Shown: one piece after another, positions 23,777 through 61,892 of the stretch | How positions within the stretch are numbered: the stretch's first letter is position 1 | Layout of the letters: every line of letters starts with the position of its first letter | From: Thermoplasma volcanium GSS1 | Lineage (GTDB): Archaea; Thermoplasmatota; Thermoplasmata; Thermoplasmatales; Thermoplasmataceae | Assembly: GCF_000011185.1 (NCBI RefSeq) | Contig: NC_002689.2 | Location: 868,001-932,000, forward strand | Reading direction: 5' to 3' | Length of the DNA: 64,000 nucleotides | Translations under genes and position numbers: made by a program | Notes under the pieces: generated by a model | Told to the model about the DNA's origin: nothing | The model's database searches: none | Seen by the model: the letters and a program-made list of their open reading frames with translations, nothing else

Positions 23777-24583
23777 TCATTGCTTCATAACCGGCCCGAT
23801 AGCTTTTCTATACTTTCCCAATATTTTTAGTGACACTGTTTTTTGAGAAATTTCGTCCATAGCTTGTTTGGAAAAACCGTTATCGATAAAATCTATATAG
23901 AATATGTACGAAAAAGGGTTGAATTTTATCGGCCTAGATTCAATTTTAGTCATGTCAATGCCATATTTTGCCAGCACGTCTACGATCGATGCGAGCGATC
24001 CTGGTTTGTTCAATAAGGTAAAAGCAATGGATATTTTATCGCCTTGAGGTTTTGCCAGCCCTTTCTTTGTTATTACAAAGAACCTGGTGAAATTATCATG
24101 TTCATTTCCAATATCCCTATCCAATATAGTTAACTTACACGCTGAGGCCGCTTCTTCACTGCATATTACGGCGTGGCCTTTGTTTTGCTCATTAAACAGC
24201 TTCTCTATTCCTGCAGTTGTACTAGTTTCTTCTATCACAGCGTATCCGTGTTTTTCTATATAATTTGAACACTGCATGAGAGCCTGGGGGTGAGAATGTA
24301 CAATTTTGACATCCGCATTGTCGGTCGCTGCAATACAATGCACTACTCTAAGGTAATATTCTTCAATAATTGATACATCTTTAGAGAATAGAAGATCGAG
24401 TGTTTGGCCGACCTGGCCTTCCAGCGAATTCTCAACCGGTACAACGGCCCTATCTATTCCTCCTTTTTCTACGGCATCAAATAGATCAAATATGGTTTTA
24501 AATGGGACCCCATCGTTATATCCCATTTTCGAGGTAGCTAAGAAAGAATATGACATTTTAGGACCAAGGTATCCAGTACTCAT
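23777..24583 (-). CDS. pheA: Prephenate dehydratase
   Basis: A 268-residue monofunctional prephenate dehydratase (prephenate to phenylpyruvate + CO2 + water, the phenylalanine branch). The N-terminal catalytic part opens with GYLGPKMSYSFLA and contains VPVENSLEGQVGQTLDLL and the catalytic NFTRFFVI. The C-terminal ACT domain (IAFTLLNKPGSLASIVDVLAKYGI, ESRPIK) gives feedback control by phenylalanine. No chorismate mutase domain is fused. It is the last conserved metabolic gene before the glycan island. Confidence 0.9.
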   Translation of the reverse strand: MSTGYLGPKMSYSFLATSKMGYNDGVPFKTIFDLFDAVEKGGIDRAVVPVENSLEGQVGQTLDLLFSKDVSIIEEYYLRVVHCIAATDNADVKIVHSHPQALMQCSNYIEKHGYAVIEETSTTAGIEKLFNEQNKGHAVICSEEAASACKLTILDRDIGNEHDNFTRFFVITKKGLAKPQGDKISIAFTLLNKPGSLASIVDVLAKYGIDMTKIESRPIKFNPFSYIFYIDFIDNGFSKQAMDEISQKTVSLKILGKYRKAIGPVMKQ

Positions 24584-24968: not shown

Positions 24969-25913
24969 CTATTCGTTATCCTCTTTTATGGAATCTCTCA
25001 TCAGGTACTTCTGGACTTTGTAAACGATTGGAACAGGGCCAAATAGTTCGAAAACCCGGATATACTTTAATGGATACGCAATGGGTGAGTCCCAATAATA
25101 TAGTATGGACATCCACCTGAGGAATTGCGAAAAGCTTATTCTATATGGCTGATTTTTTCCAAGGAGCCGACTAGCAATATTAGCAATGATACTAACTTCC
25201 ATTATGTGATTGAATATAGCTCGCCTTGTCCCTTTCTTCGAAAAATAATTATAAAGCTCTGTAAAATGAATGACGTCAATAGAGTATGATGATATAGTCT
25301 GCTCAAGCCTAACTCTATAAGGAGCAAAAGTGTGTGAACTGCTGGTATGATACCTATATAAGGTTAGTACTTTTTTTCCATTGATTATTTTACCCGATGA
25401 TTCTAGCGCAAAATAAAACATCATATTGTCTACCGATACCTTTGAATTCTCAAGGAATTCGTGCATCACAACGCTTTTTCTGATGCTTATGGATGATGAA
25501 TTGAAGCTCAGACCCCTATTTGTTCGGCCTAATTTTTTTCCGGATTCATCTATGTACTCAGCAACGTTATGGTAGTAAACTACATTTGTATTCCTCCTAA
25601 ATATCTTGTAGACGGTTTCCAGCTTCTGTCGATCGAACATATCGTCATCTTCCAAAAATGATACTATTTCACCTTTTGACACATAAAGCGCTTCAGATAT
25701 TTTTCCGCCCAGTGATTTGTTTTCACTTATTATTCCTTTAATATTATTTTCTTTAATGAAATTATCTATCGTATCATCCTGAAAATTTTTGATGACTATA
25801 ATCTCATAATATTCTCTGTCTAATGTTTGATCCAATGCACTTTTTATGGCATCCAATAAAAATTCCTTTCTGTTGTATGCAATTATTATGACGCTTATAA
25901 ATGGATCTCCCAT
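24969..25913 (-). CDS. Family 2 glycosyltransferase, module-sharing copy A
   Basis: A 314-residue GT-A fold glycosyltransferase. Residues about 5-90 form the nucleotide-sugar domain: ISVIIIAYNRKEFLLDAI, EIIVIKNFQDDTID and the metal-binding FLEDDD. The DNA for this module (25654-25898) is almost identical to that of the glycosyltransferase at 42396-43451, while the C-terminal acceptor half is unrelated. A third, broken relative lies at 33936-34890 and is similar over most of its length. It is the last of three minus-strand glycosyltransferase genes. Donor and acceptor cannot be told. Confidence 0.85.
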   Translation of the reverse strand: MGDPFISVIIIAYNRKEFLLDAIKSALDQTLDREYYEIIVIKNFQDDTIDNFIKENNIKGIISENKSLGGKISEALYVSKGEIVSFLEDDDMFDRQKLETVYKIFRRNTNVVYYHNVAEYIDESGKKLGRTNRGLSFNSSSISIRKSVVMHEFLENSKVSVDNMMFYFALESSGKIINGKKVLTLYRYHTSSSHTFAPYRVRLEQTISSYSIDVIHFTELYNYFSKKGTRRAIFNHIMEVSIIANIASRLLGKNQPYRISFSQFLRWMSILYYWDSPIAYPLKYIRVFELFGPVPIVYKVQKYLMRDSIKEDNE

Positions 25914-28554: not shown

Positions 28555-29002
28555 TTTAAAAGTATACCTTAACTTTATATTTCATTTTCCTCCCATTAAT
28601 GCAGTATAACTATTGTTATACAGCATACTGTTATTGCATTACCTCCTATGAAATAAGAAATCCATAGGGATGAGTGATTAGAGTATGCAGGTCGATGACA
28701 AGAAGCAACGACATATACTTCACTTTGGTTAGTATAAGCAAAAAGATGTTATTCCTTCGTGTTCAAGGATCCAAGCATTCTATTGCGTAATCTCCAGATC
28801 AAATTTCATCAATTATTGCGGTTAAGAATGCCGAGGATCACATGAACAAGCGTTTAGGGCGAATTTACTTAAATTTACCTTTAAAATAGTTATTCTTAAG
28901 AACATTGGATGTAGATGAGGTGGATTGCAATGAGGATGCCTTGGGGCTATTAGATAAGATCTTAAGTTTGTTCCGCATAACTATCTCGAATCTTCACATC
29001 CC
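28555..29002. other. Non-coding stretch before the IS cluster
   Basis: About 450 bases with no open gene. The segment ATTGCGTAATCTCCAG near 28781 recurs in slightly altered form near 51151 (ATTGCGTAATCTTCCAG), hinting at shared debris, but no function is visible. Confidence 0.4.
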
Positions 29003-29065
29003 TTATTTTGCATAGATATAACCGGTACGCACGTTATATTCTGTTGCACGCTTATTACTAACTTT
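29003..29065 (-). pseudogene. Relic of the C-terminus of an FkbM-type methyltransferase
   Basis: On the minus strand this encodes ATEYNVRTGYIYAK and a stop, nearly the same as the C-terminus of the intact FkbM gene at 36721-37602 (ATEHNMRMGYIYAK). Upstream similarity continues at the DNA level for a few dozen bases but in broken frame. It is a leftover of a second FkbM gene cut by the IS1634-like remnant. Confidence 0.6.
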
Positions 29066-29273
29066 TTACCAGTTTTCATACACCAGGGTTGTGATAAACT
29101 CCTGCTTCTTTGACAATTCCATACTTTCACTCCATTCAATATTGGATTCTCTATCCTTCAAATAAACATTATACACGGTGTTCAATATGATCAATGCCTC
29201 TGTCCCTGATATTCCTATACTATTTATTTTACATTCCAGCATTGACAGTATTACATATGTAAATAGCATATTT
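29066..29273 (-). pseudogene. C-terminal remnant of IS1634-like transposase
   Basis: About 67 residues (LFTYVILSMLECKINSIG, SGTEALIILNTVYNVYLK, LSKKQEFITTLVYENW) that look like the tail of IS1634-type DDE transposases, where a hydrophobic helix is followed by an EAL-x-LNTVY segment. It is on the same strand as the N-terminal remnant at 30668-31402. An IS3 element lies between the two. Roughly 200 central residues, including part of the catalytic core, appear missing, so insertion was joined by a deletion. Confidence 0.55.
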
Positions 29274-30667
29274 TGTGAAATGTTTCACGCATCTCTGGAC
29301 AAATCGTGAAATTAATTAAGATACACTTCGTTCCATGTCCATAAAATGCCAGAAAGAAAGGTATATAAACCGGAAGAGAAACTGAAAATTGTACTGCAAG
29401 GCCTGAGCGGAACCATCTCAGTTTCGGATCTGTGCAGAAAATATGATATCAAGTCTGCAAGGTTTTACTCGTGGAAGGAGAAACTAATGAGGAGTTCTGC
29501 TGATATATTCGAAGACAGGTAGAGAAAAGGTGTACCTGCAGATAAACGCATTGACGATCTGAAAGAGGAGAATGCAAGGCTAAAGGAGACCATTTCCGAG
29601 ATTGTAGAGGAGAACCTTGAGATCAAAAAAGTATAGAAGCATCTTTCAGGGGAGGGGATGGACATGAGGTCACTGTTCCATGACATCCACCGGACTGTCA
29701 TGAATGCCATGGAAAGGGCAGGATATTCAGGAAAAGCAACACTGAAGATCCTTCGCACACCAAGGTCCTGGTACTATGTACAGCTTGATTTCTCACCCCT
29801 CCTGGACGGAAGGTTCAACTCCTTCGCTGTCAGGGAGGATGATGAGTGGATCGTTATAGGATACAGGCGTAAACAACCGGAAATGTCATTCAGGGAGATT
29901 GCATACACACTCATTGATGAGGATCTTACATATCTCTCCCCTCAATCAGTTTACAGAATATTGAAGAAGCACGATCTCATAACAGAATGGCACATGAAGA
30001 CCTGGCCATCCACAAGACCGTAAAAGGCGAAGAGACCTGACGAAAGATGGCAGACAGACATTATGTACATCAAGATAAATGGAAGATTCTTCTATCTTCT
30101 GATCTTCATAGACGAATATTCCAGGTACATAGTGCATCATTCACTGCTGATATCTATGGATGTCGATTCCATATCCATGGAGGCACAGAGAGCAATCGAC
30201 ACACTGAGAAAATCATCACTTGCAGAACCTGTTATACAGAGCGATAACGGTTCATCATTCATCGCAATGGAGTTCAAACATGTCCTGAGGGAGAATCATC
30301 TCACTCAAAAACTCATAAGGCCTCACACACAAGAAAACAACGCGATCGTTGAAAGAGCCAACAAGACCATGCGAGAGTCTTGGTACCTGTCATACAGACT
30401 GATTACGAACAGGCGAAATCCGAAATCTCCGGTATCGTTCAGCACTACAATAACGAAAGAAGACATTCCGCACTGCAGTATCTCACACCGATACAGTATT
30501 ACAGGGGCGATCCTAAAATACTCCTGGCAGTGAGGGAGGCAAAGATAGAGAAGGCAAAAGTATTGAGGAGGGAAGCAAATATGAAAGAAAGGAAATGAGG
30601 TGAAGAGACAGGAACCGTTTCTTAATTATTTTCCTGATCTATCCAGAAGTGTGAGAAACAGTACACT
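29274..30667 (+). mobile_element. Degenerate IS3-family insertion sequence
   Basis: Imperfect inverted ends are visible: left TGTGAAATGTTTCACGC...TCTGGACA from 29274, right end (reverse complement) TGTACTGTTTCTCACAC...TCTGGATA ending near 30665. They enclose an OrfA/OrfB-type transposase reading frame with several stops. The element splits an IS1634-like transposase gene. Ends are accurate to a few bases only; the target duplication could not be fixed. Confidence 0.65.
29346..30598 (+). pseudogene. IS3-family transposase (OrfA-OrfB), inactivated
   Basis: From ATG 29346 the frame encodes a helix-turn-helix OrfA (KVYKPEEKLKIVLQGLSG, VSDLCRKYDIKSARFYSWKEKL), a coiled leucine-rich region (RIDDLKEENARLKETI) and an OrfB integrase core with the three catalytic acids: Asp in WQTDIMYIKI, Asp in VIQSDNGSSF and Glu in NAIVERANKTM. 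It is broken by TAG 29520, TAG 29634, TAA 30021 and a one-base deletion near 30378, after which the frame resumes as VPVIQTDYEQAKSEI and ends at 30598. Unlike most IS3 elements, OrfA and OrfB lie in one frame. Confidence 0.85.
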
Positions 30668-30676
30668 TCTGGATAG
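30639..30676. repeat. Perfect 14-bp inverted repeat at the IS3 right junction
   Basis: CTATCCAGAAGTGT (30639-30652) is followed after 10 bases by its exact complement ACACTTCTGGATAG (30663-30676). The left arm lies inside the IS3 right end and the right arm reaches into the flanking IS1634-like gene, so it may be a chance product of the insertion site or a preferred hairpin target. Confidence 0.6.
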
Positions 30677-31402
30677 TAGACCATTTTGTATACTGTATTC
30701 ACGTCGTTTATGTTGCCCTCGAATACTTTGTTAACGACAGGTATTCCATACTTTCCGTTCATTATCATCGCGATGTTTATCTGGAGTTTGTTGAGTTTCC
30801 CATCCTTGTTGTGCCCAAAGAATGCAAGAGGACAGCATTTGCCTTCAAAATATATCGGGGTGATATCGTAGAAGTAGGTGTCGTCTTCTTTGCCGAACAG
30901 TTTCAGTGCGTTTCCGTATAGTTGTATCGAGATCCTGTACAGGTGGTCGGTGTTCTTTTCCTCATAGTAGAGTTTGTTCATTAGGTACTGCTGCGTGTTA
31001 TCTGTTATGCGCTCGGGGTCAAAGTTCATGGATAATGGCAGATGGGTCTTCTTTACCCAATTTGTTGAGTTCGCAGATGTTGGTTTATAATCTAATAGTT
31101 TATGCGACGTTGTAAGAAAGAATTCAAGACCTAACGACAGTCCTTGCCTCCTTGGAACGTATGTGTTTACCACGTCAAACAGGTTGATGGCCTCCGCCGG
31201 CCTTATAAAGTAGTGCAGCACCTTCGAAATCGTATGCATGAAGAAGCAACTCCTTGGTTATCGGTTTGGCGTCAGGTTCCTTTCGTGGATCTGTCCGACC
31301 ATAATACTTCAGCACACGTTGCCTTACTTTTCTTTCTTTTGTGCGATACCCTTCGACTTCCATCCATGTAATATTAAATGCCTCTGACCTCTTTTGATAC
31401 AA
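30668..31402 (-). pseudogene. N-terminal remnant of IS1634-like DDE transposase
   Basis: Two overlapping frames join with one frameshift near 31200. The first (from 31402) gives VEGYRTKERKVRQRVLKYYGR and AKPITKELLLHAYDFEGAALLY; the second gives AEAINLFDVVNTYVPRRQG, YDITPIYFEGKCCPLAFFGHNKDGKLNKLQINIAMIMN and GIPVVNKVFEGNINDVNTV. The last two blocks are the typical first-aspartate region of IS1634/IS4-type transposases. The gene is then cut by the IS3 element. Non-functional. Confidence 0.75.
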
Positions 31403-31599: not shown

Positions 31600-32412
31600 T
31601 TGAATAATGATATTTCTATAGCTGCATTAATAGTGACATATAATCCAGATAAGAGACTGATAGAAAGTTTAACAAAATTGGAAAAACTTGTTGATTTTGT
31701 TGTTATTGTAGATAATAATTCCAATAAAAGTCCGGTTCTTGATTACATAAGTAATAATATCTTTAATGACCGATACCTAATTCAATTGGAAGATAATCTT
31801 GGTATAGCCTATGCATTAAATACCGGTATTAAATATATCTTGGAGAAAGGGCATTATGACTACATACTAACACTGGACCAGGATACAGTTCCTTTAATAG
31901 ATGATATTAAAGAGTTAATAAAAAGAGCAAATTCTATTTACAGCAATATAGGGATTATTGCGCTAATATCGAAAATGGACCCTAAAATTCCAGAATTCAC
32001 GGATGTTAAATTTCCAATGACAAGTGGAAACATTGTAAAATCAGAGATATTTAAGTATATTAAATACAGGGAAGAGTTCTTTATAGATTCCGTAGATTTC
32101 GACTTTGATTATAATGTAAGAATGCATGGATACCGTATTATACAATACAACTACAGGGCTATAGACCATAATGTAGGAATTACCAAAAATGGATTTCCAT
32201 ATGAATCAAGCGAAAGACTTTACTATATAATCAGGAATTCTACTGTGCTTTTCGGTGAGAATAAGATAACCTTTAGAATGTACATATTTCAAGCTTTTTA
32301 CTGGATTACCATGGGTTTAATTCATTGGGAAATTTTAAAGACTGCTAAATCAAGTGTAAAAGGGTTTAAAGATGGTGTAAATAAAAAATTAGGTAAAAAT
32401 AATGATATTTAA
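31600..32412 (+). CDS. Family 2 glycosyltransferase, rhamnosyltransferase-like
   Basis: A 270-residue GT2 enzyme starting at TTG 31600 (no suitable ATG). Motifs: AALIVTYNPDKRLIESL, VIVDNNSNKS, DNLGIAYALNTGI and TLDQDT (the DxD-type motif), then FIDSVDFDFDYNVRMHGYRI and YYIIRNSTVLF. The wording matches bacterial O-antigen rhamnosyltransferases of the RfbN/WbbL type. The gene is very A+T-rich, unlike the core genes, and stands alone between IS debris; acquisition by transfer is likely. A C-terminal hydrophobic patch (FQAFYWITMGLIHWEIL) may associate with the membrane. Confidence 0.82.
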   Translation: MNNDISIAALIVTYNPDKRLIESLTKLEKLVDFVVIVDNNSNKSPVLDYISNNIFNDRYLIQLEDNLGIAYALNTGIKYILEKGHYDYILTLDQDTVPLIDDIKELIKRANSIYSNIGIIALISKMDPKIPEFTDVKFPMTSGNIVKSEIFKYIKYREEFFIDSVDFDFDYNVRMHGYRIIQYNYRAIDHNVGITKNGFPYESSERLYYIIRNSTVLFGENKITFRMYIFQAFYWITMGLIHWEILKTAKSSVKGFKDGVNKKLGKNNDI

Positions 32413-32413
32413 T

Positions 32414-32625
32414 ATTTTTAATGAATTTATATTTGGCAATATGAAAAATCTAGAAATATGGCAACTTAAGTGAAGGAATTAATACATATCTATTACACTT
32501 TTGTACGGAATCAACAATAAACGAATATAAAAAAATAAGCAAAGAACTAAACTCATTAAGATCCAAACTGATTTGTTTTTTAGCCTTGTGAATTACAGCA
32601 ATAATCTCTATATTTCAAACAATCC
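32414..32625. repeat. Dispersed inverted repeat, left copy
   Basis: This A+T-rich segment (with TTTGGCAATATGAAAAATCT and TTTGTTTTTTAGCCTTGTGA) reappears in reverse orientation at about 52485-52695. The match is imperfect but continuous over ~200 bases. It has no intact frame and may be two decayed copies of the same lost gene or element. The rest of the gap to 32778 shows nothing else. Confidence 0.65.
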
Positions 32626-32899: not shown

Positions 32900-33858
32900 C
32901 AGTCGATCTTCTTCCAGAAAATTTCCATACAAAATCAATAGAACCATACAATAGATCAATAGGAATAGAGGATCTTATAGTATAAATGTATTTCAATGGC
33001 ATATCTACAAGGGGAATAGCGGTATAATAGAGGATATATTAGGAAATAAATACTCTAAATCCACTGTATCAAGAATAACAGATTTAACTATAGAAGAGGT
33101 TTATAAATTTGTTAACAGGTCATTAAATAAAAAGTATATAGCAATATTGTTAGATGGCTTATTCTTCTATTTAAGAAGGGGGATGTTGATAAGGAACCTG
33201 TAGTATTTGCATTAGGAATTAAAGAAACAGGAGAGTATGAAGTATTAGGATTCTATTTAACAGTAAAAGAATCACATAATACATACAAAGATGTATTGGA
33301 GGATCTTTATAGCAGGGGATTAAAGGAGCTATTATTGATTGTAGCAGATGGAATAAAGAATTTAGATGAGGAAGTCATGGAAATATATAATAGATCAGAA
33401 TTCCAGTTATGCACTATACATTATTTAAGGGGATTAAAATCTGATGTAAGAAAAAAGGATGCTGATGATATTACTAATGATGGAGATAAAATGTTTAAAT
33501 GTGATAATAAGGAAGAAGCTATAATAAAATTCAATGAATTTAAAAATAAATAGAAGAATAAATATCCAAAGTAATATCCAATACAGAGAAAAACCTTGAA
33601 AAGCTACTAAGGTTCTATAATTATTCTCCAAGCATAAGAAAATTACTGAAATCAACCAATGCTATAGAAAAATTAAGTGAAGAAATAAGAAAGAGGATAG
33701 ATACTATATCATGATTCCATAATAAGGATTCAGCAATGAAGGAATTCCATTTTAAGTCAATATAATTTAATTCAAAGCATGCATTAGGGAAAATGAACGA
33801 ATATTATAAATGCCAGTACGAAATAAAGGAAATGTACAATAAGAGGTATCCCCTATAA
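32900..33858 (+). pseudogene. IS256/mutator-type transposase, decayed
   Basis: Pieces in several frames assemble into an IS256-type transposase: YNRSIGIEDLI, SKSTVSRITDLTIEEVYKFVNRSLNKKYIAILLDG, VVFALGIKETGEYEVLGFYL, GLKELLLIVADG, FQLCTIHYLRGLKSDVR, then LRFYNYSPSIRKLLKSTNAIEKLSEEIRKR and ending near YNKRYPL. The catalytic DG, ADG and late ST-NAIE regions are recognisable. Several stops and frameshifts break it; the longest intact piece is 33296-33553. A related N-terminal relic is at 52922-53250. Confidence 0.8.
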
Positions 33859-33935: not shown

Positions 33936-34890
33936 ATGGTTATATCAGTAATAATAATAGCATATAACGGAAAAAAATATATATTAGATGCAGTAAAAAG
34001 CGCATTAAATCAGACGTTAGATAAAAAATATTATGAGATAATAGTTATAGAAAAATTACAATGATGATAAAATAGATTATTTTATAAATAAAAATAATAT
34101 AAAAAATATGTTCAGCAATGATAACTCACTTTCGGGAAAGATATATGATACACTTAAAATAACAAATGGAAATGTAGTATCATTTTTAGAGGATGATGAT
34201 TTATTTACAAGTAATAAACTTGAAATTGTATTTAACTTATTTAAAAACGAAAATGCTTGTTATTATCATAATGCTTCAGAAATAGTAGATAAATTTGGGC
34301 ATTCTTTAAATATAAAAAATACTGATCCATATTTTAATTCATCATCAATATCTATACGAAAAGATATTATATATAGAGATATAATAAAGGAGATTCCGAA
34401 AGGCGTAAATACCGTATTATATATCAATGCGTTAGACTCTGGTAAAGAGATTGTAAACGGTTATGAGGCTTTAACATATTACAGGGCTCATAAAAGTGAA
34501 ACGCATTTTACTGGATCATTAGAAGAAATTGCATCATCAGATTTAAATCTGGCTAAATTAGCAGTTGCATCATTCGAAATTTTATATAAAAGGTTGATAA
34601 ATAAAAACAGAAAACAGTAGAGATAAGTTAATGTCATATACAATAGACGCTAAACTTAAGGCAAATTTGTTGAGCAGGTATTTAACGAAAAATAATATAT
34701 ATTTTATAGGGAATGAAGATATTAAATCTTGGTTATTTTATAATAATGAGAAATTTTTACGTGGAGTTAAATCATTTTTTATAAAATATCCATGCTAATT
34801 TTATTATCAATGCCCTCATTTATTATAAAATATGCAATAGAGCCTTTCATAAATCAAAAATATATTAAGAGCAAAATAGGCTTTAATTAA
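33936..34890 (+). pseudogene. Family 2 glycosyltransferase, frameshifted third copy
   Basis: Starts ISVIIIAYNGKKYILDAVKSALNQTLD; a one-base A insertion near 34050 shifts the frame, which goes on as SLSGKIYDTLKITNGNVVSFLEDDDLF and FNSSSISIRKDI up to 34620. Further frameshifts then give SYTIDAKLKANLLSRYL and SMPSFIIKYAIEPFINQKYI to about 34890. The full-length layout matches the intact gene at 24969-25913, including the central SSSISIRK block, but at lower identity. All three interruptions lie in A/T runs. It should be inactive unless the runs are sequencing errors. Confidence 0.75.
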
Positions 34891-35038: not shown

Positions 35039-36250
35039 ATGAGTGTTTGTAAAAATATGAAAGATAATAAAATGAAGCTCAATATTTATGATGTGGTTTT
35101 TGTTTTGCCAAGACCTAGTATTACTTATCCATCAGGTGGCTATGATATTGTTTACAGGCTTGCTAAAGCACTTAACAAGGAAGGTATAAGAACCTCTATC
35201 ATTTTTTTAGAGAAGCCAGAAATTTATATAGAGAATTATAATGTTAGTCAACATGTAAAGAATGAGAATAGATGGTATAGATTGATTGTATATTTATTTC
35301 GCTTATTATTTAACGTTAAGAGAATTGATTTGTTCTATAAATTACGACTATATAAACTCCTAGGAGTTGATTATAATTATTCTATTTTAGATGATATTGA
35401 TTTATATTATTATGAAACTATTGAAGATGTTAAAATTAAAATAAATATCATTATAGCCACTTCATGGGAAACTGCTTATTTCGTTAGGGAATATGTTAAA
35501 AAGCATAAAATCGAAACGCTATACCTTGTCCAGCATAGTCAAGATGATGTCTCTTTTAGCGGAGAGAATTCCAACAATGCAAAATTTACATATACTTTTC
35601 CATTTAAAAAAATTGTCATAAACCAAAAAATGTATAACAGGTTTAAGGCGGAAAAACCATTGTTTTTCCATGTCGGTATTGATACTCAATTCTTTAAAAA
35701 GCTAACAAAAACTAATGATAGGGAATACATTATGTTTCCATTAAGAATAAGTGAATAGAAAGGCTCAATATATGCTATTGAATGCATTAGAAAATTATTG
35801 CAGAATAATGAAAGTATAAAAATCACGGCATTCGGAGATTATAAATTGGATGAAATACCGGCAGATATAAGGAACGAGATAATTTATTATTACAGGCTAT
35901 CCAGAAAAGTTTTGCTTGGCCTGTATAACAAAAGTATTATTTTTGTCTTGCCTTCTATAGTCGAGGGAATGCCATCGCCACCTCTGGAAGCGATGGCATG
36001 TGGTTGTGCTGTAGTTGTAACTGACAACGGAGGAGTAAATGAATATATTAAAGATGGCTTAAATGGCATTGTGTGCCCTGTGAGAGATTCTTATTGTTTG
36101 TATCAAAAGGTTATATTGTTAATCAATAACAAAGCTTTAAGGGAGCAAATGATTCAAGACGGATTGGAAACAGCTAAAGAATTTAGCTATGATAACATGA
36201 ATAAAAATTTTATTAGGTTAATTGAAGAAGTTCAAAGAAGAAAATCTTAA
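35039..36250 (+). pseudogene. Family 4 glycosyltransferase interrupted by one amber codon
   Basis: One continuous frame of 403 codons with a single TAG at 35756-35758. The first part (FVLPRPSITYPSGGYDIVYRLAKAL, LYLVQHSQDD, FFHVGIDTQFF) is the acceptor half and the second (ITAFGDYKLDEI, SIVEGMPSPPLEAMACGCAVVVTDNGG) is the donor half with the Ex7E motif. Nothing else is broken, so the stop is recent, or a sequencing error, or the two halves are expressed separately. An A+T box lies near 35015-35025. The preceding gap of about 150 bases shows nothing. Confidence 0.75.
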
Positions 36251-36720
36251 GATAAATAGTATTACTACTTGTATGAATTCTCTTTTCTATATTCCATATA
36301 TAATTTTAATTTCTCCATTATTGCTATAATTCACTTTGTTGGACTATCTAAACGATCGTGATCTGTTCCCCTTTAATTCTGGACAGTTTTGTATAATGAT
36401 TTTAACCATAACACCATTATGGCAATGATCAGGGGGCACTATTAGTTCCATGTGGCATGATCCACCCTATTAAGTATGTATTTCTTTTTTCATGTTCAAG
36501 TATAATAATATATATTGCACAAATGTACCGATAATAAGCAAGGCTGTTGGAACATAGAAAAAGATTGTATTAACTGTAGACCATATAATGTGGAATAGAC
36601 ATAGCTAAGAAGAAGTTTGATTACTGTATTATAGAGGAATTTTCTTATAATATTCAAGCTTTTTGTCTTACGATTTAGGATTAGACCATTACACTTATTA
36701 TGTCCTGTAAATATGTTTAT
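36251..36720. other. Gap with a possible solo IS3-type terminus
   Basis: 470 bases without a gene. Around 36361-36390 the wording TGTTCCCC...TCTGGACAG resembles the terminal repeats of the IS3 element at 29274-30667, so it may be a solo end left by a lost copy. The rest shows nothing. Confidence 0.35.
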
Positions 36721-37602
36721 TCATACACCTGATTTTGCATAGATATAACCCATACGCATGTTATGTTCTGTTGCATCTTTATTAAATAGTTTTACAGGTT
36801 TAGTATAAGTTACAGTGAATCCGGCTTCTTCAAGTTTATCCTTTAATTTTTCATAACCGTAGTGGTACTCGATTTCTATTCTTTCAAATTTCTTTAACGT
36901 ATCGTTATCCTCCTTGAGTAAATTATACTCACAGCCCTCGCAATCCATCTTTAGAACAGCCTTATCTATTTGGTAATCACTCAACAACGTTTTTAAAGAC
37001 AATATTTTAATATCCATGCCATCGGTGAATGATCTTAAATTAATAGTACCGGGGTTTTTAAAATCAGGATCTACCTTTATAGTACCATCTTGACCGTAAC
37101 CCGCATTTAATAATATTATTTTATCTTGTAGATCGTAGTTTTTGATATTTTTTAATGCTATGTTATAGGAGTACGGATATGGTTCCAAAGCGATAACTTT
37201 TTTTGCGTTATTTAATGCAAAATATATGGATGAATCGCCAATATTGGCACCTATATCAATGACAGTTTCATTTTCAACTCTGAGGAAAGCGTAAATTTCG
37301 AATCCAAAAACACCTGCAGCGTCACCGATGGGGTATTCGAACATTATGTTATGACCATTATAAGTGAATTTTATACTATTGCCTTCTAAATTCACATTAT
37401 AAATGTGATCATTCCTAGTGGTAAATAGCACAGAATACGCGTATGCCAAATCGTGATTTAAATATGTTGAATTTCCATTTTGCAATATAACCTTAATTCT
37501 ATCTCTTCCTCTCCAAACGTTCCACATAACGCCCATATAGTTCCTATATGCCTCTTTGTATCTTTTTATCGTACGCATCATATCTTTCATTCCCATTTTC
37601 AA
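36721..37602 (-). CDS. FkbM-family SAM-dependent methyltransferase
   Basis: A 293-residue FkbM-type O-methyltransferase. The SAM motif is TVIDIGANIGDSSIYFAL with the following VIALEPYPYSYNIALKNI, and the family's late motif is AVLKMDCEGCEYNLL. Such enzymes methylate sugars of surface glycans or natural products. The N-terminal ~90 residues (RYKEAYRNYMGVMWNVWRG) may position an acceptor. It sits alone between decayed genes. A relic of a second copy is at 29003-29065, so this methylation function has been duplicated and lost once. Confidence 0.85.
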   Translation of the reverse strand: MKMGMKDMMRTIKRYKEAYRNYMGVMWNVWRGRDRIKVILQNGNSTYLNHDLAYAYSVLFTTRNDHIYNVNLEGNSIKFTYNGHNIMFEYPIGDAAGVFGFEIYAFLRVENETVIDIGANIGDSSIYFALNNAKKVIALEPYPYSYNIALKNIKNYDLQDKIILLNAGYGQDGTIKVDPDFKNPGTINLRSFTDGMDIKILSLKTLLSDYQIDKAVLKMDCEGCEYNLLKEDNDTLKKFERIEIEYHYGYEKLKDKLEEAGFTVTYTKPVKLFNKDATEHNMRMGYIYAKSGV

Positions 37603-39690: not shown

Positions 39691-40283
39691 GGCCTTAATT
39701 CATGATACCGATCATATGGATTTTTGATCCCATTTCCCCGATAATGACCTTTCAGTTTTTCTAAAATTTTTATTCTGTACGGTCTGTGATTCATGGTTGT
39801 CATGATAATTTTCTTCCACATCAATTAGTACATCTTAAACTTTAAAACCAACAGGATATGATTTTATGTAAAATAGTTGACTTTAATATAAATAGGTGTC
39901 TTTCGAACATGTTTAAAACCATTTTCCGATGGCATCGATATTAAAATATTGTCTTTGAAATGCAAGAATGATATATATTGAAATGGAATGCAAAGACCTA
40001 AAATTATCCTTCAAAAAATTTGTACCGTAATTAAAGTTATACGTAAAGAAGAGAAAAATTTAATTCATGATCAGTATGTTACGACTTAAAAATTTCTTAT
40101 TACATATATTTGATATATACTCCATTGTATATTTTGCAACCAATTTGTAATACTATTAACAAGCTTCCATTAGATACATATCTTTTACTTTCCACAGTAA
40201 GCGGAAGCAAGGAATGCAACATTGCATTTTGTTGATGAAATCAAGATAACAGGCATAGCGGTGTTCAAGAAATTATTTTATTT
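39691..40283. other. Non-coding DNA between the repeats and the recombinase relic
   Basis: About 590 bases of A+T-rich sequence. No convincing frame, RNA gene or repeat is seen. Confidence 0.4.
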
Positions 40284-41184
40284 GACAAAGGTAAGGGTTA
40301 TTTACAGTAATTTGCAGGATATGTTCCTTAATCAGGAAAAATGATATTATAAAAATGCTATTGAATTTCAAGAAGAAATATATGGGTCCGACTTTTGTTG
40401 ATTATGAAACCGTTATGAAAAGGTTTTATAAATGGTAATTTGGCACATTGCCAGATTATATTGAAAATTTAAAGGTCAGGAAGCCAAGCCGTGATAAGAA
40501 GATAAGTCTGATTACCAGGACAGGTGTCGATGAAATAATTAGAAACTGCAACAATGCCAGGGATAAGGCAATTATATCCATTTTATATTATTCAGGGTGC
40601 AGGGTAAGTGAAATATTATCTTTAAAAATATCCGATATTGTTTATGAAGAATATTGTGTGATATCGCATTTTCATGGCAAAACAGGTAATAGAATCTTGG
40701 GAATAATAGGCTATTCTACAGCATATTTAAGGGATTATATAAAAATAAAATATGATGGGGATTAATACCTTTTTACGTGGCAACAGGGAGATACAATGCA
40801 TAAGCGATTACATTATTACGCAGTAAGAAAATTATTTTTTAATGTTAAAAAACGTGCAGGAATAGATAAAAGGATGTATCCACATTTGTTCAGGCATACA
40901 AGAGCTTCGTTGCTAGCTTCTAAAGTTACCGAAGTATCTTTGGAAAATCAGATGGTATGAATTAATGAAAGCTAGATGGCTGTAATATATGTGTATTTAT
41001 CTGGAATGGATCAGGATGACGCAATTCTTAAAGCTTATGGAATTGTTGTAAAAGAAGATAAAATAATAGTAGAGAAATCCAATATAATACTGGATATGAC
41101 AAAGAAGATAATGGAGAAATCACAGGATGCTTTTAAATCGCAATTAATAGAAAATATATTGGAGGAAATTTTAAAAAGATCCTG
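40284..41184 (+). pseudogene. Tyrosine recombinase/integrase (XerA-like), decayed
   Basis: The pieces assemble into an archaeal tyrosine recombinase: an N-terminal SAM-like part (GPTFVDYETVMKRFYKW, then TAA), DYIENLKVRKPSRDKKISL, the first catalytic arginine in YYSGCRVSEILSL, then TAA 40762, then the HxxR box in YPHLFRHTRASLLAS and the tyrosine region AVIYVYLSGMDQDDAILKAYGI. Several stops and a frameshift near 40960 kill it. Such enzymes integrate mobile elements or resolve chromosome dimers; here it probably marks a lost integrated element. Confidence 0.75.
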
Positions 41185-42395: not shown

Positions 42396-43451
42396 TTATA
42401 TGGTATTTAAAAGAAATGATATATACAAAAATATTTTTGTTGAAAGTTTTTTAGAAATAAATTTACCAAATAATACTAAAATAAACGCACCTGAAAGATA
42501 AATACTTTTTCTCATTGTTACAAACTTAAAGAATAATTTAATATCGTTTATATTAATTTCATATTCGTTTAATAAATATAATTGTGATTTCCGAGCTGAT
42601 ATTGTAAGTTTGAGATAATCACATAATGGTTGTTTATTATCATAGAAATTATATAAATTATTCTTAATACAAAATTCATTAAATATATATACAATAGCAT
42701 TTAAAGTTTCTTTGGCAATAGTAAAATTTTTATTTTTGAAGTTTTTTATTTCTAAATCACAAGAGGTGTTGGACCATGAATTATGGATAAACCAAATTGA
42801 TAAGGGTTTATCATATATCAAAATTTCTTTTGAGGTATCTGATTTGCCTGAAAGACAAAAAAAGAAACACATATCATGTGCTATTCTTATATTTTCCAAA
42901 ATGTCTAAGCAATCATTAAAATATGATTTTCTTATTGTAATAGCTGACATATTGAAGGCTATTAATTTTTTACTTATAAGATAATTGATGGTTTTAATAT
43001 TGTTCAATTCGATTAATTTTAGAAATATTTTTTTATTTTTCTTGTTTTCACTATAATCTATTTCAAATAATCTATTATTGGTTTTAATAAAATTATTATG
43101 ATAATAAACAAGATTTGGATTACTAATAAAAATATCATAAACTTCCCTTAATTTATTTGGAAAAAATAAATCATCGTCTTCTAAAAATGATACTATTTCA
43201 CCTTTTGACACATAAAGCGCTTCAGATATTTTTCCGCCCAGTGATTTGTTTTCACTTATTATTCCTTTAATATTATTTTCTTTAATGAAATTATCTATCG
43301 TATCATCCTGAAAATTTTTGATGACAATAATTTCATAATATTCTCTGTCTAATGTTTGATTCAATGCACTTTTTATGGCATCCAATAAAAATTCCTTTCT
43401 GTTGTATGCAATTATTATGACGCTTATGTATGGTAATTTTTCATTCTCCAT
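42396..43451 (-). CDS. Family 2 glycosyltransferase, module-sharing copy B
   Basis: A 351-residue GT-A enzyme. Residues about 7-97 carry ISVIIIAYNRKEFLLDAI and FLEDDDLF and are nearly the same as copy A at 24969-25913; the DNA identity (43183-43427) is 242 of 245 bases. After the metal-binding DDD the two proteins part company: this one goes on as FFPNKLREVYDIFISNPNLVYYHNN, with a C-terminal hydrophobic helix (SIYLSGAFILVLFGKFI). Outside the shared module the gene is far more A+T-rich, so the module seems to have been pasted in. Confidence 0.85.
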   Translation of the reverse strand: MENEKLPYISVIIIAYNRKEFLLDAIKSALNQTLDREYYEIIVIKNFQDDTIDNFIKENNIKGIISENKSLGGKISEALYVSKGEIVSFLEDDDLFFPNKLREVYDIFISNPNLVYYHNNFIKTNNRLFEIDYSENKKNKKIFLKLIELNNIKTINYLISKKLIAFNMSAITIRKSYFNDCLDILENIRIAHDMCFFFCLSGKSDTSKEILIYDKPLSIWFIHNSWSNTSCDLEIKNFKNKNFTIAKETLNAIVYIFNEFCIKNNLYNFYDNKQPLCDYLKLTISARKSQLYLLNEYEININDIKLFFKFVTMRKSIYLSGAFILVLFGKFISKKLSTKIFLYISFLLNTI

Positions 43452-45497: not shown

Positions 45498-48400
45498 TCA
45501 AATTTTATTTTTTCTATAGGTGTCCAACACAAAGTATGAAAGCACAGCTAAATAAATTATTATGCCTATATAAAATACATCCATTATTACTTTTCCCTTA
45601 GTTATTATCTTAATATCATTTAATGAAGCTATACTTTTATTTATGATAAAGATGCTGTTTCCATAAATTCCGGGTATGGAACTATAAAGTTTCCCCCCGT
45701 AACTCGCCCTATATTCCCTTAAGCTCGGGTATATTGAGACTATAATAGATGTATTTTTGTTATTTAATAAAGATGTGTTTTTAATCAAAATTAAGGCTGC
45801 AACTTTGGTATAGCCTTTCAAATATAATCCTTTGCTAAAATTAAACTTTACCCATTGGTAATTATTCATTGTACTATTTTCCATATAGATAAGGGCACTT
45901 CCATTGTTTCCATTCAATAAAGTATTATTCAATGTCACAAAGTTGCCAAAGGGCAATGTTGAATTTTCACTTATGTGCGGATATGGTATATATCTGCAAC
46001 TTAAATTATTGATATAAAATGTGCCATTGGTAGAGTCGTATAGCCTAAAGTCAACATATTTTTCTATGGCGGGAAATGTATAGGAGAAAGTGTATTTTTT
46101 ATATGAATTGGAGACATTGAAATTATACCCTGAATATACATTATCGGTATATATATTGCTTCTCGGTTCTCCCATGAATAGTACCGAACCAGTGCCATTG
46201 ACAGATGCTTTAGCATAAAATGTAAGCTTTAATGAAACCACTGTTGAGTTGATGGAGTTGCTATTTACATAAAATCCTCCTGCACCACCATCAAATGAAC
46301 CATTATACGAAACACTAACACCGTTACTATACGCATTGCCTGTAATTTTTATTGTTCGATTATAATAAGAATAGTATGCTTCATTATTTACCCATAACGT
46401 CAAAGTGAAATTGTCGGGCAATCCAGTAGCATAATTGTGTCCAGCACCTGAGATAGTTTTATTGGAACTTAAGTTGAAATAGGGGGACTCGGTTGAACCT
46501 ACTAAGGTAGATAGATATCCGGGTGTGTCTATGGAAATATCTTTGCTATTATTGTCAAAATTCACAGGTAATCCATATTTATTGTCATAGGTGATTGCAA
46601 CATTATAGCCCAAGGTCTTGAATAAATATGGGAGTGAAACTTCATAGATATTATTTCCTTCATAGTTTAACAGCAGGTTAGACGTATAAATTGAAGTAAA
46701 GTTATCTACCTCAAATATGTCTACTTGATATTTATTATATATCTCCTTCAATCCGGTGGTATTCTGTAGAAAACTCTGTGCTTGTGTAAAACTCTTAAAA
46801 CCCGCGTTAGAAAATGTATATTCAAATATTGCCCCTGGATTCTTCTGTATGTCCTGATTTGAAATCACAACGTATTTTACACCAGAATATAATAAATTAT
46901 AATATAAATCTACACTCAAATTATTTGATGTAATATAATCCAAGTTAGGTATGGATGCTTCTGGGTGTGGTGGTGCATATACCCTATTACTAAATGCAGG
47001 ACCACCAATCCATAGTATGTTGAAATTGCTCTTCTGCGATGAAATAAAATCATAGGCATGGATAACACTGCTATTGATGTTTAATGGCGTATATCCACCT
47101 ATATTGGCAACATGATTTCCATATGCAGTATCAGGAGCTCTTGCCGGATAAAATGTACCGTCGAATGCCTGCCAGCCAGAAAATATAACAATAAACATTA
47201 TAAATATTATCACAAATACCTGAAATTTATTATTTTTAAAATATTTTTTATTTTTAATGTTTTCGATATAATTTTTTATAATTGATATGTTTATATTGAA
47301 TTTATCCTTATCTGATTTTATATCTACATGAAAATGCATATTCATTAAATTTACAAGAGACATTGAAAATAATATATAGTACATTGATGCAATAACGTTA
47401 ATTACGTGCCCGGGAAGAGACAGCGTTGTTCCTATTGAGCCTCCAATCAGTGGAATTTTACTTATATGCAACTCTAAGTAAAATAAAGGCTTTATATAAT
47501 AAACAAGTGACATTGTATAGAATATTATAAATAATATTATAACTGGGAATACAATTTTTCTAGTTTTCCTGAAAACGATTGAAATTAATGATATAACAGG
47601 AACCATTATTACTGTTAATAGCCATATATATGTTATAAAGCCATCTGGCAATAACAGCTGCGATGGATACATTAAAGATTTCACTGAACTTATTTTGTTG
47701 CCATAGAATAATATATTTGGTGGTGCATAAACGATTGTTGACCATAAATGCCCTATTAATATCAACGGGTATAATGGCTTTATGTTTCCGCTGAAGAAAG
47801 ATATCGTTCCATAGCTGTAAACTCTTAATGCACCAACAGCCGTTATCGTAGATCCAGAACTGGATGTCAACACAAGCCCGAGTATAACAAAAGCCACCGG
47901 AATTATTGTGGATATTATTGTTAATATAGCATATTTGAATCTATATATAAAATCTCTATTGATTAAACCTGCTATTATGCTGCCGATTATTATAGAAATA
48001 AAATAAAATGTAGTGTAATCCGGTTCTACAAGTATAGATATAGTTAATAATATGGTTGATACTAAAAATGCCATTTTCATATTTTTCCATGAGATAAAAG
48101 CTAATAGTATAATTGCTATAAATATTATATTTAAGTTGTCTGAATATGAACCACCATCGTTAATGAGGTTTAGTGAGGTAAAGTTTGAGAATATAAATAA
48201 TACAATAATGAATTTTACCGCTATTATTTCATATTTATTTTTGGTTTGTAAAAATTTTGATGTTATCATCGTGGCAAAAATATAAGCAAAAAAAAGATAT
48301 AAAACAAAGGTGTAATATATAAATACCCTTTCAGTTATCATAACACTATTTGTGAATAAAGTTATGACATAATATGGCCAATCTATTATCAACCTTGAAA

Positions 48401-48614
48401 AACTAAAACCACTTAACGAATTAAATGATAATATACCAACTGTGTAAATATAATTTGATAATGGCCATGCTTGATCGGCATAGAAATAATAGCCTGATTC
48501 AAACAAAAACCCCCTTAAAGCAATTAAAGGTATAATTAAAATCAATATCATATCTATGTAATGTTTTTTTAAACTGTGTTTTATTAAATACAAAAGATAT
48601 TGAATTCTTATCAT
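45498..48614 (-). CDS. Large polytopic membrane protein with extracytoplasmic sugar-binding-like region
   Basis: A 1038-residue protein, the largest here. The first ~480 residues have about 12 hydrophobic helices, starting with DMILILIIPLIALRGFLF and an early luminal segment FESGYYFYADQAWPLSN, a layout like GT-C glycosyltransferases. Residues about 490-990 are outside the membrane, beta-rich and full of N-x-S/T sites, with a carbohydrate-binding-module-like part (DGGAGGFYVNSNSINSTVVSLKLTFYAKA). One last helix (VFYIGIIIYLAVLSYFVL) anchors the C-terminus. A role in lipid-linked sugar transfer outside the cell is inferred; no conserved catalytic motif can be assigned with certainty. Confidence 0.7.
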   Translation of the reverse strand: MIRIQYLLYLIKHSLKKHYIDMILILIIPLIALRGFLFESGYYFYADQAWPLSNYIYTVGILSFNSLSGFSFSRLIIDWPYYVITLFTNSVMITERVFIYYTFVLYLFFAYIFATMITSKFLQTKNKYEIIAVKFIIVLFIFSNFTSLNLINDGGSYSDNLNIIFIAIILLAFISWKNMKMAFLVSTILLTISILVEPDYTTFYFISIIIGSIIAGLINRDFIYRFKYAILTIISTIIPVAFVILGLVLTSSSGSTITAVGALRVYSYGTISFFSGNIKPLYPLILIGHLWSTIVYAPPNILFYGNKISSVKSLMYPSQLLLPDGFITYIWLLTVIMVPVISLISIVFRKTRKIVFPVIILFIIFYTMSLVYYIKPLFYLELHISKIPLIGGSIGTTLSLPGHVINVIASMYYILFSMSLVNLMNMHFHVDIKSDKDKFNINISIIKNYIENIKNKKYFKNNKFQVFVIIFIMFIVIFSGWQAFDGTFYPARAPDTAYGNHVANIGGYTPLNINSSVIHAYDFISSQKSNFNILWIGGPAFSNRVYAPPHPEASIPNLDYITSNNLSVDLYYNLLYSGVKYVVISNQDIQKNPGAIFEYTFSNAGFKSFTQAQSFLQNTTGLKEIYNKYQVDIFEVDNFTSIYTSNLLLNYEGNNIYEVSLPYLFKTLGYNVAITYDNKYGLPVNFDNNSKDISIDTPGYLSTLVGSTESPYFNLSSNKTISGAGHNYATGLPDNFTLTLWVNNEAYYSYYNRTIKITGNAYSNGVSVSYNGSFDGGAGGFYVNSNSINSTVVSLKLTFYAKASVNGTGSVLFMGEPRSNIYTDNVYSGYNFNVSNSYKKYTFSYTFPAIEKYVDFRLYDSTNGTFYINNLSCRYIPYPHISENSTLPFGNFVTLNNTLLNGNNGSALIYMENSTMNNYQWVKFNFSKGLYLKGYTKVAALILIKNTSLLNNKNTSIIVSIYPSLREYRASYGGKLYSSIPGIYGNSIFIINKSIASLNDIKIITKGKVIMDVFYIGIIIYLAVLSYFVLDTYRKNKI

Positions 48615-52484: not shown

Positions 52485-52695
52485 ATTTAAGTATAGTGGT
52501 TATTGCAGTAATTTACAGGGCTAAAAAACAAATCAGTTTAGGTCTTGATGATTTTTTTGCCTATTTGTTTTATAATCATTTATCGTTGGTTTCATATAAA
52601 AGTGTAATAGATGTGTATTGGTTGATTTATTCCATCACCTAAGTTGCCATATTTTTAGATAGTTCATATTGCCAAATATGGATTCATTCAAAATA
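52485..52695. repeat. Dispersed inverted repeat, right copy
   Basis: Its reverse complement matches 32414-32625 over ~200 bases, with shared wording such as TTTGGCAATATGAA, ATCTATTACACTTTT and ACTGATTTGTTTTTTAGCC. Both copies are followed within a few hundred bases by IS256 relics. Nothing else is seen up to 52921. Confidence 0.65.
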
Positions 52696-52921
52696 TTAAA
52701 TATCATTATTTTTACCAAATTTTTTATTTACAAATACATCTACCAGATAGCCAATGAGTTTGCGATGTTGATGAACTCCTGGAATTGTTAAATATTCAAT
52801 AACATAATATATTTCAATGATACCATAATTTTATGTAAATATAAATTTATCAACGAATTCAATCATTAAATAATAGGAAAGGATACATTTTTTTGAATGT
52901 AGATGTAATAAAATATGGAAA

Positions 52922-60371: not shown

Positions 60372-61892
60372 ATGCCCCAGACATCTTCTTTGCTCGGTAT
60401 TGATGCGTTATACCAATTTACCGGAGCTGGGGCACAGTTGTTTTCTGGAGCTCTTTTTTACACGGTTATTGTAAGGTTTTTTAGTGCGTCTCAGGTCGGA
60501 GCTGTTGCTCTTTTTATAGCAATCATAGGTCTATTCAATCTAATATTCTCCTTCGGGCTGGGTACAGCCGTACAACATTTCGCATCGTACCATCTTGGTA
60601 GGCAGGAATACGCCACTGCAAAAAGCATAGTTTTTAAAATACTAATACTCGGTATAATATTCTCCTCTATAGGTTTAATAACTATGTTTTACCTAGCTAA
60701 ACCTATATCAATTACATTTATGCATACCGCTCAATACACCCCTATAGTAAAACTTCTCAGTATTGTGTTAGTTGGCGATGTATTATTCGGTCTGCTTAAT
60801 GGAAGCGCACTTGGTTTACAGCTTTTCCGCGCATCTGGTTTAATGAACATTATAATTTGGATAACTTATTACTCTACCGCTCTTGTTCTAGCATTTCTTC
60901 TTAAATCACTATATTACGTTGTTGTTGGTTGGTCTGTTGGAATATTCCTTGGTGTCATCCTTTACCTATACCTTATAATAAAATCCACAAAAAATTACAA
61001 AGGTAGGCCTCGCCATTTAACCCCCTCTCTGCTTTTCCAGTTTTCGATACCTGTACTCCTATCGTCCATAATATCTTATGGGGCAACATACATAGATAGA
61101 TTTATTGTAGCTGGTCTAATGACACTTTCTGCTCTAGGAGTTTATAATTTCGCTCTACTTGTAGCAAGTTCAATCGGTTTCATAGTCGCTCCTTTGAACA
61201 ACATTATGCTGCCAAAATTTTCGGAATTCTACGGGGAAGGGAATAGGGAAAATATAAAAAATAGGACAGCCATAGCTACGACAGTAGTCGCTGGAGTATA
61301 TGTTCCCGCAGCCCTTGGAGTAGCTGTACTCTCAAAGATGATAATAACTTTGCTCGCAGGCAAATATTACGAAGAAGGATCAGATGCAATTTCAATAATA
61401 ATGGTTTTTTCAGCTCTATTCGTAACCAGCAACGTTATGACGCAGCTCATAGCAGCTGTAAGGGAGACAAGAGTTTTTATCTATTCTAGCGCCGCTTCCC
61501 TTGCAAGCAATGCAATACTTTCAATTATTCTTATACCACATTTCGGGATAGAAGGCGCTTCGATTGGATTCTCATCAATATATGCTGCATCGTTCTTCGT
61601 ACTTTACAAGTATGCTAAAAAAACCGGTTTCTATCAGGCTAATGTATACGATTTAGCAAAGGTGTGGGGTTCTTCGCTGGTTATGGTTTTTGTCGTTTTG
61701 GCGTTCGAAGTACGTTTCGGCACATCTATAGATCTATTAGTGCCGTATATACTTCTCGGCGCTGTAGTTTACCTAGGTATGATTAAGTCAACTCGTCTGA
61801 TACACAGGAATGAGGCATTATTCCTGTCTTCACTTTTTCCACAATCAATGCCATTTATAACGAAATTGATAAGGCTAATATCTTCAGAATAG
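60372..61892 (+). CDS. Wzx-type polysaccharide/oligosaccharide flippase
   Basis: A 506-residue MOP-superfamily membrane protein with 12-14 helices. The N-terminal wording (ALYQFTGAGAQLFSGALFYTVIVRFFSASQVGAVALF) and the central PVLLSSIISYGATYIDRFIVAGLM and KFSEFYGEGNRENIKNR segments are typical of Wzx/RfbX and archaeal AglR-like flippases. It would move lipid-linked glycans from the cytoplasmic to the outer face. In context it connects the cytoplasmic glycosyltransferases to the extracytoplasmic GT-C-like proteins. It is monocistronic on the plus strand. Confidence 0.88.
   Translation: MPQTSSLLGIDALYQFTGAGAQLFSGALFYTVIVRFFSASQVGAVALFIAIIGLFNLIFSFGLGTAVQHFASYHLGRQEYATAKSIVFKILILGIIFSSIGLITMFYLAKPISITFMHTAQYTPIVKLLSIVLVGDVLFGLLNGSALGLQLFRASGLMNIIIWITYYSTALVLAFLLKSLYYVVVGWSVGIFLGVILYLYLIIKSTKNYKGRPRHLTPSLLFQFSIPVLLSSIISYGATYIDRFIVAGLMTLSALGVYNFALLVASSIGFIVAPLNNIMLPKFSEFYGEGNRENIKNRTAIATTVVAGVYVPAALGVAVLSKMIITLLAGKYYEEGSDAISIIMVFSALFVTSNVMTQLIAAVRETRVFIYSSAASLASNAILSIILIPHFGIEGASIGFSSIYAASFFVLYKYAKKTGFYQANVYDLAKVWGSSLVMVFVVLAFEVRFGTSIDLLVPYILLGAVVYLGMIKSTRLIHRNEALFLSSLFPQSMPFITKLIRLISSE

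Follow-up and report, generated by a model that had tools for sequence, protein, structure and literature searches.

Two kinds of described systems come closest to the case reported here. In the pilE/pilS system of Neisseria a short tract of one paralogue is written into another, which results in a mosaic gene (PMC10745880, PMC5445459), and in the variable glycosyltransferase islands of archaea, described for Sulfolobus acidocaldarius (PMC5554439) and Haloferax (PMC5867893), genes or islands are gained, lost or transferred, the island of S. acidocaldarius showing deletions (PMC5554439). Paralogue conversion and variable glycosyltransferase islands are each already known; their combination at the domain boundary described below was not reported for the Thermoplasmatales in the literature searched, a search that most subscription papers lay beyond. 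The locus that we have compared with these systems belongs to Thermoplasma volcanium GSS1, whose genome consists of one contig of 1,584,804 bases. The window, i.e. the whole stretch of DNA that was analysed, covers 64,000 nucleotides of it (868001-932000), and the coordinates given below are those of the window unless the genome is named.

Two genes on the minus strand are in the focus of the study. Gene A (24969..25913, 314 amino acids, likely the recipient of the tract discussed below) and gene B (42396..43451, 351 amino acids, likely its donor) are open reading frames which matched PF00535 with E values of 5e-18 and 6e-17; their scores of 65.9 and 62.5 bits lie above the curated cut-off of 23.3, and no NCBIfam equivalog approached its own cut-off, the highest score being about 42 of 400 bits. 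Known GT2 enzymes such as PglI (PDB 9jma) and chondroitin synthase (2z86) are alike in the N-terminal nucleotide-sugar domain and carry DDD at the place of the DxD motif, but these matches stop short of the C-terminal halves of A and B. PglI was aligned by residues 9-124 of B, where its DDD falls on the EDDD sequence, the DxD-type metal-binding motif which closes the nucleotide-binding half in A, B and also in a third gene, C. Structure prediction was carried out for B from the alignment of A and B; the whole model was poor (pLDDT 39) and usable at most for the order of the N-terminal strands and helices, which within the shared region is beta-alpha-beta-alpha-beta-alpha-beta, as expected of the nucleotide-binding half of a GT-A fold. 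A and B are thus classified, by sequence, as paralogous GT2 glycosyltransferases of the GT-A fold with a predicted role in sugar transfer.

The genome contains six members of this family, A to F. The DNA of the N-terminal module of C (at 936 kb of the genome, outside the window) is about 90% identical to those of A and B, and E and F are found at 952 kb and 99.8 kb of the genome, respectively. D (33948..34620, plus strand) is a frameshifted relative and was considered as a silent donor copy; its module is just 73% identical to that of A at the DNA level, so that D was rejected as a recent donor. A consensus-like composed query found no additional copies in the genome beyond the known members, and a scan of genome contigs with peptide patterns returned two distant relatives only, since the patterns had been taken from stretches private to B. 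Of 77 genomes belonging to this taxonomic family, 57 carry such genes, with up to 8 copies per genome.

The first-pass annotation had claimed a gapless match of 245 bases with three differences between A and B, and this was reproduced on realignment: positions 25654-25898 and 43183-43427, both read on the minus strand, are identical at 242 of their 245 positions, and no gap is needed to align them. This patch starts at ISVIII (codon 6 of A) and ends directly ahead of EDDD, between FL and the motif, so that it spans the nucleotide-binding half as codons 6-87 of A and codons 9-90 of B, where it is flanked by the leader MENEKLPY and the junction DLFFPNKL. The three differences are T/A at 25797, C/T at 25803 and C/T at 25832; two of them are silent and one is a D/N difference. 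The abrupt loss of identity at both ends, also claimed previously, could be seen in steps of 50 bases: identity was 96-100% within the patch, 52-62% over the conserved DDD...KL..VY region, which takes up about 100 bases past its low-coordinate side, and 14-42% farther out. The patch is the sole long direct repeat above 90% within the window. The probability of three or fewer mismatches in 245 positions was about 10^-22 at the DNA identity which the module shows between genera (77.5%) and about 10^-78 at a background identity of 45%, which excludes both chance and the between-genera degree of conservation as the source of the match.

The contrast of silent sites inside and outside the patch had been named as the decisive comparison, and it proved to be very large. 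In the patch, dS was 0.043 between A and B and 0.46 between either of them and C, whereas in the C-terminal halves it reached 4.3 for A/B (NG86, experimental module of Biopython) and was saturated for A/C and B/C, where no value could be computed; identical residues in these halves use the same codon in just 42-43% of the cases. Contrary to the earlier claim, the C-terminal halves are not unrelated. Those of A, B and C share 28-33% amino acid identity and, in a common order, the motif FN.S(S/A)I(S/T)IRKS, a conserved D and the motif (YR)YH..S, which identifies them as very old, much diverged homologues. Among the 1,225 pairs formed by 50 genes only those within A, B and C combined a module identity of 92-99% with a C-half identity of 28-33%; in the remaining pairs with modules above 85% the C-halves were 65-93% identical.

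Additionally, gene A proved to be a mosaic. At the informative sites of module codons 0-80, 25 of the 28 group A with B (1 A=C, 2 B=C), while from codon 80 onward to codon 99 A sides with C at 19 of 24 sites (2 A=B, 3 B=C). The maximum chi-square was 35.7, unmatched in about 20,000 permutations (p <= 5e-5), and the position at which B gives way to C as the closest relative of A falls within module nucleotides 231 to 246, shortly ahead of FLEDDD. Since the informative sites switch at one breakpoint, A is read as following B as far as the DxD motif and C for about 40 bases more, after which all three genes diverge. The C-like stretch, DMFDRQKLETVY (25615..25653, minus strand), lies directly downstream of the patch with the breakpoint at its start and is common to A and C, not B. 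Tree tests were weak: in AU tests of the C-halves one clade of A+B+C gave p 0.036 and A+B gave p 0.33, and the AU test of the topology of the N-terminal half was uninformative. It should be emphasized that the reading of paralogue conversion is based on the silent sites, the identity contrast and the breakpoint, and topology is not its basis. Together with a second case in another genus, described below, the silent sites and the mosaic with its sharp breakpoint back the recent recombination or gene conversion proposed at first, and they make a strong case for recent intragenomic recombination between A and B.

The direction of this event can be proposed with moderate confidence only, because the evidence consists of a short junction and a leader. 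The leader and junction of B resemble those of relatives in other genera (MENDKLPY and DLFFENKL in G012 and G020), therefore the module of B looks native in B; the leader of A (MGDP) differs from that of B, and the junction of A is derived and common to C. Third-position GC content was 0.25 in the patch of A versus 0.38 in its C-half (p 0.03), and 0.24 in the module of B. When the three later differences were polarised by outgroups, two were assigned to A (one of them only probably) and one to B. These features suggest that the tract moved from B to A in an event that may have been non-reciprocal, the leader and the junction of B looking native. In this proposed mechanism homologous recombination would have overwritten part of A with the corresponding stretch of B, about 245 bp that make up the nucleotide-sugar-binding half as far as the DxD motif, and A would have kept its own leader and its C-like junction. 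Homologous recombination between direct paralogues, stopping where conserved motifs supply local identity, would be the simplest mechanism. The comparison covers one genome per species, in which a single event and a recurrent one would look alike.

The last event would have been preceded by others. The search for the same module on further C-terminal halves was successful, as it was found on three differing ones (A, B and C), and the presence of the module in C at about 90% identity indicates that older exchanges, predating the last event, had already joined related modules to differing acceptor-side halves. Since A and C have the junction in common, the module replaced in A was probably C-like and about 90% identical to the incoming one; the last event would consequently have barely altered the donor half, and most likely homogenised rather than diversified it. 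The suggestion that one donor module is pasted onto differing acceptor halves could thus be retained as the older pattern of A, B and C, but not for the last event, in which the modules were already about 90% alike. Over longer times the family consists of one donor-half type joined to several old acceptor-side halves. The C-halves presumably set acceptor specificity, and the A, B and C enzymes are expected to use one and the same donor sugar. The account as a whole, a B-to-A copying of the nucleotide-sugar-binding half atop older joinings of modules and C-halves, is in our judgement very probable.

The best surviving alternative is that, after duplication of a module-bearing gene, one of the two copies exchanged its C-half for that of a different GT2 gene through crossing over within the conserved DxD region. 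Such a swap of the 3' half would likewise yield a recent module next to old C-halves, and the relatives of the C-half of B (G077 L061, G005, G098 and others) do differ from those of the C-half of A; however, the own leader and upstream region of A and its C-like junction are not expected in a duplicate of B. We regard this course as improbable for the last event, and likelier for the older split of A, C and B. Even less probable is a separate acquisition of the module by A and B from one outside donor. The AT-rich, mobile character of the island would fit such transfers, as would the absence of the module at the DNA level from other Thermoplasma genomes, its nearest copies occurring in other genera; these are nevertheless just 78% identical, and two events as well as an unseen donor would be required. 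No module and no relatives were found in the viral contigs searched. Protein selection alone, keeping the modules alike with no exchange, has hardly any probability left: throughout the family no other part is indeed as well conserved as the module, but its silent sites are near-identical too in A and B, while between genera dS is about 1.2-1.4 at a DNA identity of 77-78%, and the great difference in age between the two halves of A, B and C means that this kind of selection cannot by itself explain the patch. The same two full-length genes with equal identity were not found in distant genera, the modules of other genera having at most 78% DNA identity. An assembly collapse or error is similarly negligible in spite of the single assembly as source, as both copies lie on one contig with unique flanks and three differences, and the third copy of about 90% identity was kept apart.

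The proposed exchange between A and B has a parallel outside Thermoplasma. In G022, which belongs to a different genus, two genes 30 kb apart (L074:201-499 and L076:118-414) have modules 90% identical over 299 bases, with 118 of 120 identical positions over the final 120 bases, and the match ends abruptly directly behind DDDDLFFNNKLE. An inspection of the alignment by eye puts the identity of their C-halves at about 40%, and one copy is frameshifted in the module. By its sequence this pair is an independent second case with the same anatomy and breakpoint region as A/B. The inverse pattern was observed in the orthologues L067, L068 and L081 (from G028, G012 and G078), where dS was 0.47-0.61 in the module and 0.14-0.26 in the C-half (two pairs measured), as expected if the module had been replaced there too. 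Furthermore, among pairs from the whole family with C-halves below 45% the DNA identity of the module was 0.61 within genomes and 0.57 between them (p 0.002), a comparison of non-independent pairs that includes A, B and C and to which shared base composition may contribute. A far more general statement, that the GT2 family of Thermoplasmatales, through conversions recurring at one set position next to the DxD motif, keeps a common donor half, lets the acceptor halves be reshuffled and diverge, and in this way varies the glycans of a wall-less surface, actively in living populations, would go well ahead of these data and is improbable; that the combination of modules and C-halves in this family may vary the surface glycans is plausible.

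The genes are located in an island with GT1/GT4-type and GT2 glycosyltransferases, an FkbM methyltransferase, an epimerase, a GHMP kinase and a MurJ/Wzx-like flippase. GC content is about 27% in parts of the window between 32 and 52 kb and 41-45% to the left of the island. In G001, of the same genus, a flippase and a GT2 relative are near each other as well (744.8 and 754.3 kb), hence the position of the island seems to be old and its content variable. A, B and C have the same orientation, so crossovers among them could delete 17-42 kb of the island.

Several further features were recorded in the surroundings. The low-GC part contains remnants of an rve transposase (29658-31239), a mutator-type transposase (33296-33553) and a phage-integrase family protein (40448-40765), and an inverted repeat of about 250 bases with 82.5% identity (32376-32618 and 52486-52732), of which most lies outside long reading frames, perhaps represents mobile-element remnants. 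At 35039-36250 a frameshift has probably split one GT1-type glycosyltransferase gene into two adjacent plus-strand frames of 239 and 150 amino acids; it is to the second of these that PF00534 matched, with its C-terminal part. Short repeats around the FkbM-type methyltransferase gene (28993-29066, 36720-36793 and 39912-39960; 74 nt at 80% and 49 nt at 88%) are probably fragments of a second and a third copy; these repeats were considered as a possible parallel to A and B, but a complete second copy did not turn up. Adjacent to the island, the prephenate dehydratase (23777-24583) is 32-35% identical to the versions in other Thermoplasma genomes and possibly of foreign origin; the corresponding value for the flippase (60372-61892) is 70-81%. 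The island also encodes a protein of 1038 amino acids with many hydrophobic stretches and without a Pfam match (45498-48614).

The locus offers a clean natural experiment, in which recombination has led to a shared donor-binding half next to acceptor-side halves of great age. A tree built from whole genes of such glycosyltransferases would therefore blend two histories, and recurrence in strain data would link intragenic recombination to the variation of surface glycans in wall-less archaea. Compared to the previously described systems, the likeness to the pilE/pilS conversion of Neisseria is the short paralogue tract that makes a mosaic gene; there, however, one expressed gene is accompanied by silent cassettes, whereas A and B are two intact, apparently complete genes, known from one genome sequence. 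With the islands of Sulfolobus and Haloferax the locus shares the richness in glycosyltransferases and the variable content, and it differs from them in the unit of exchange, which is here half a gene.
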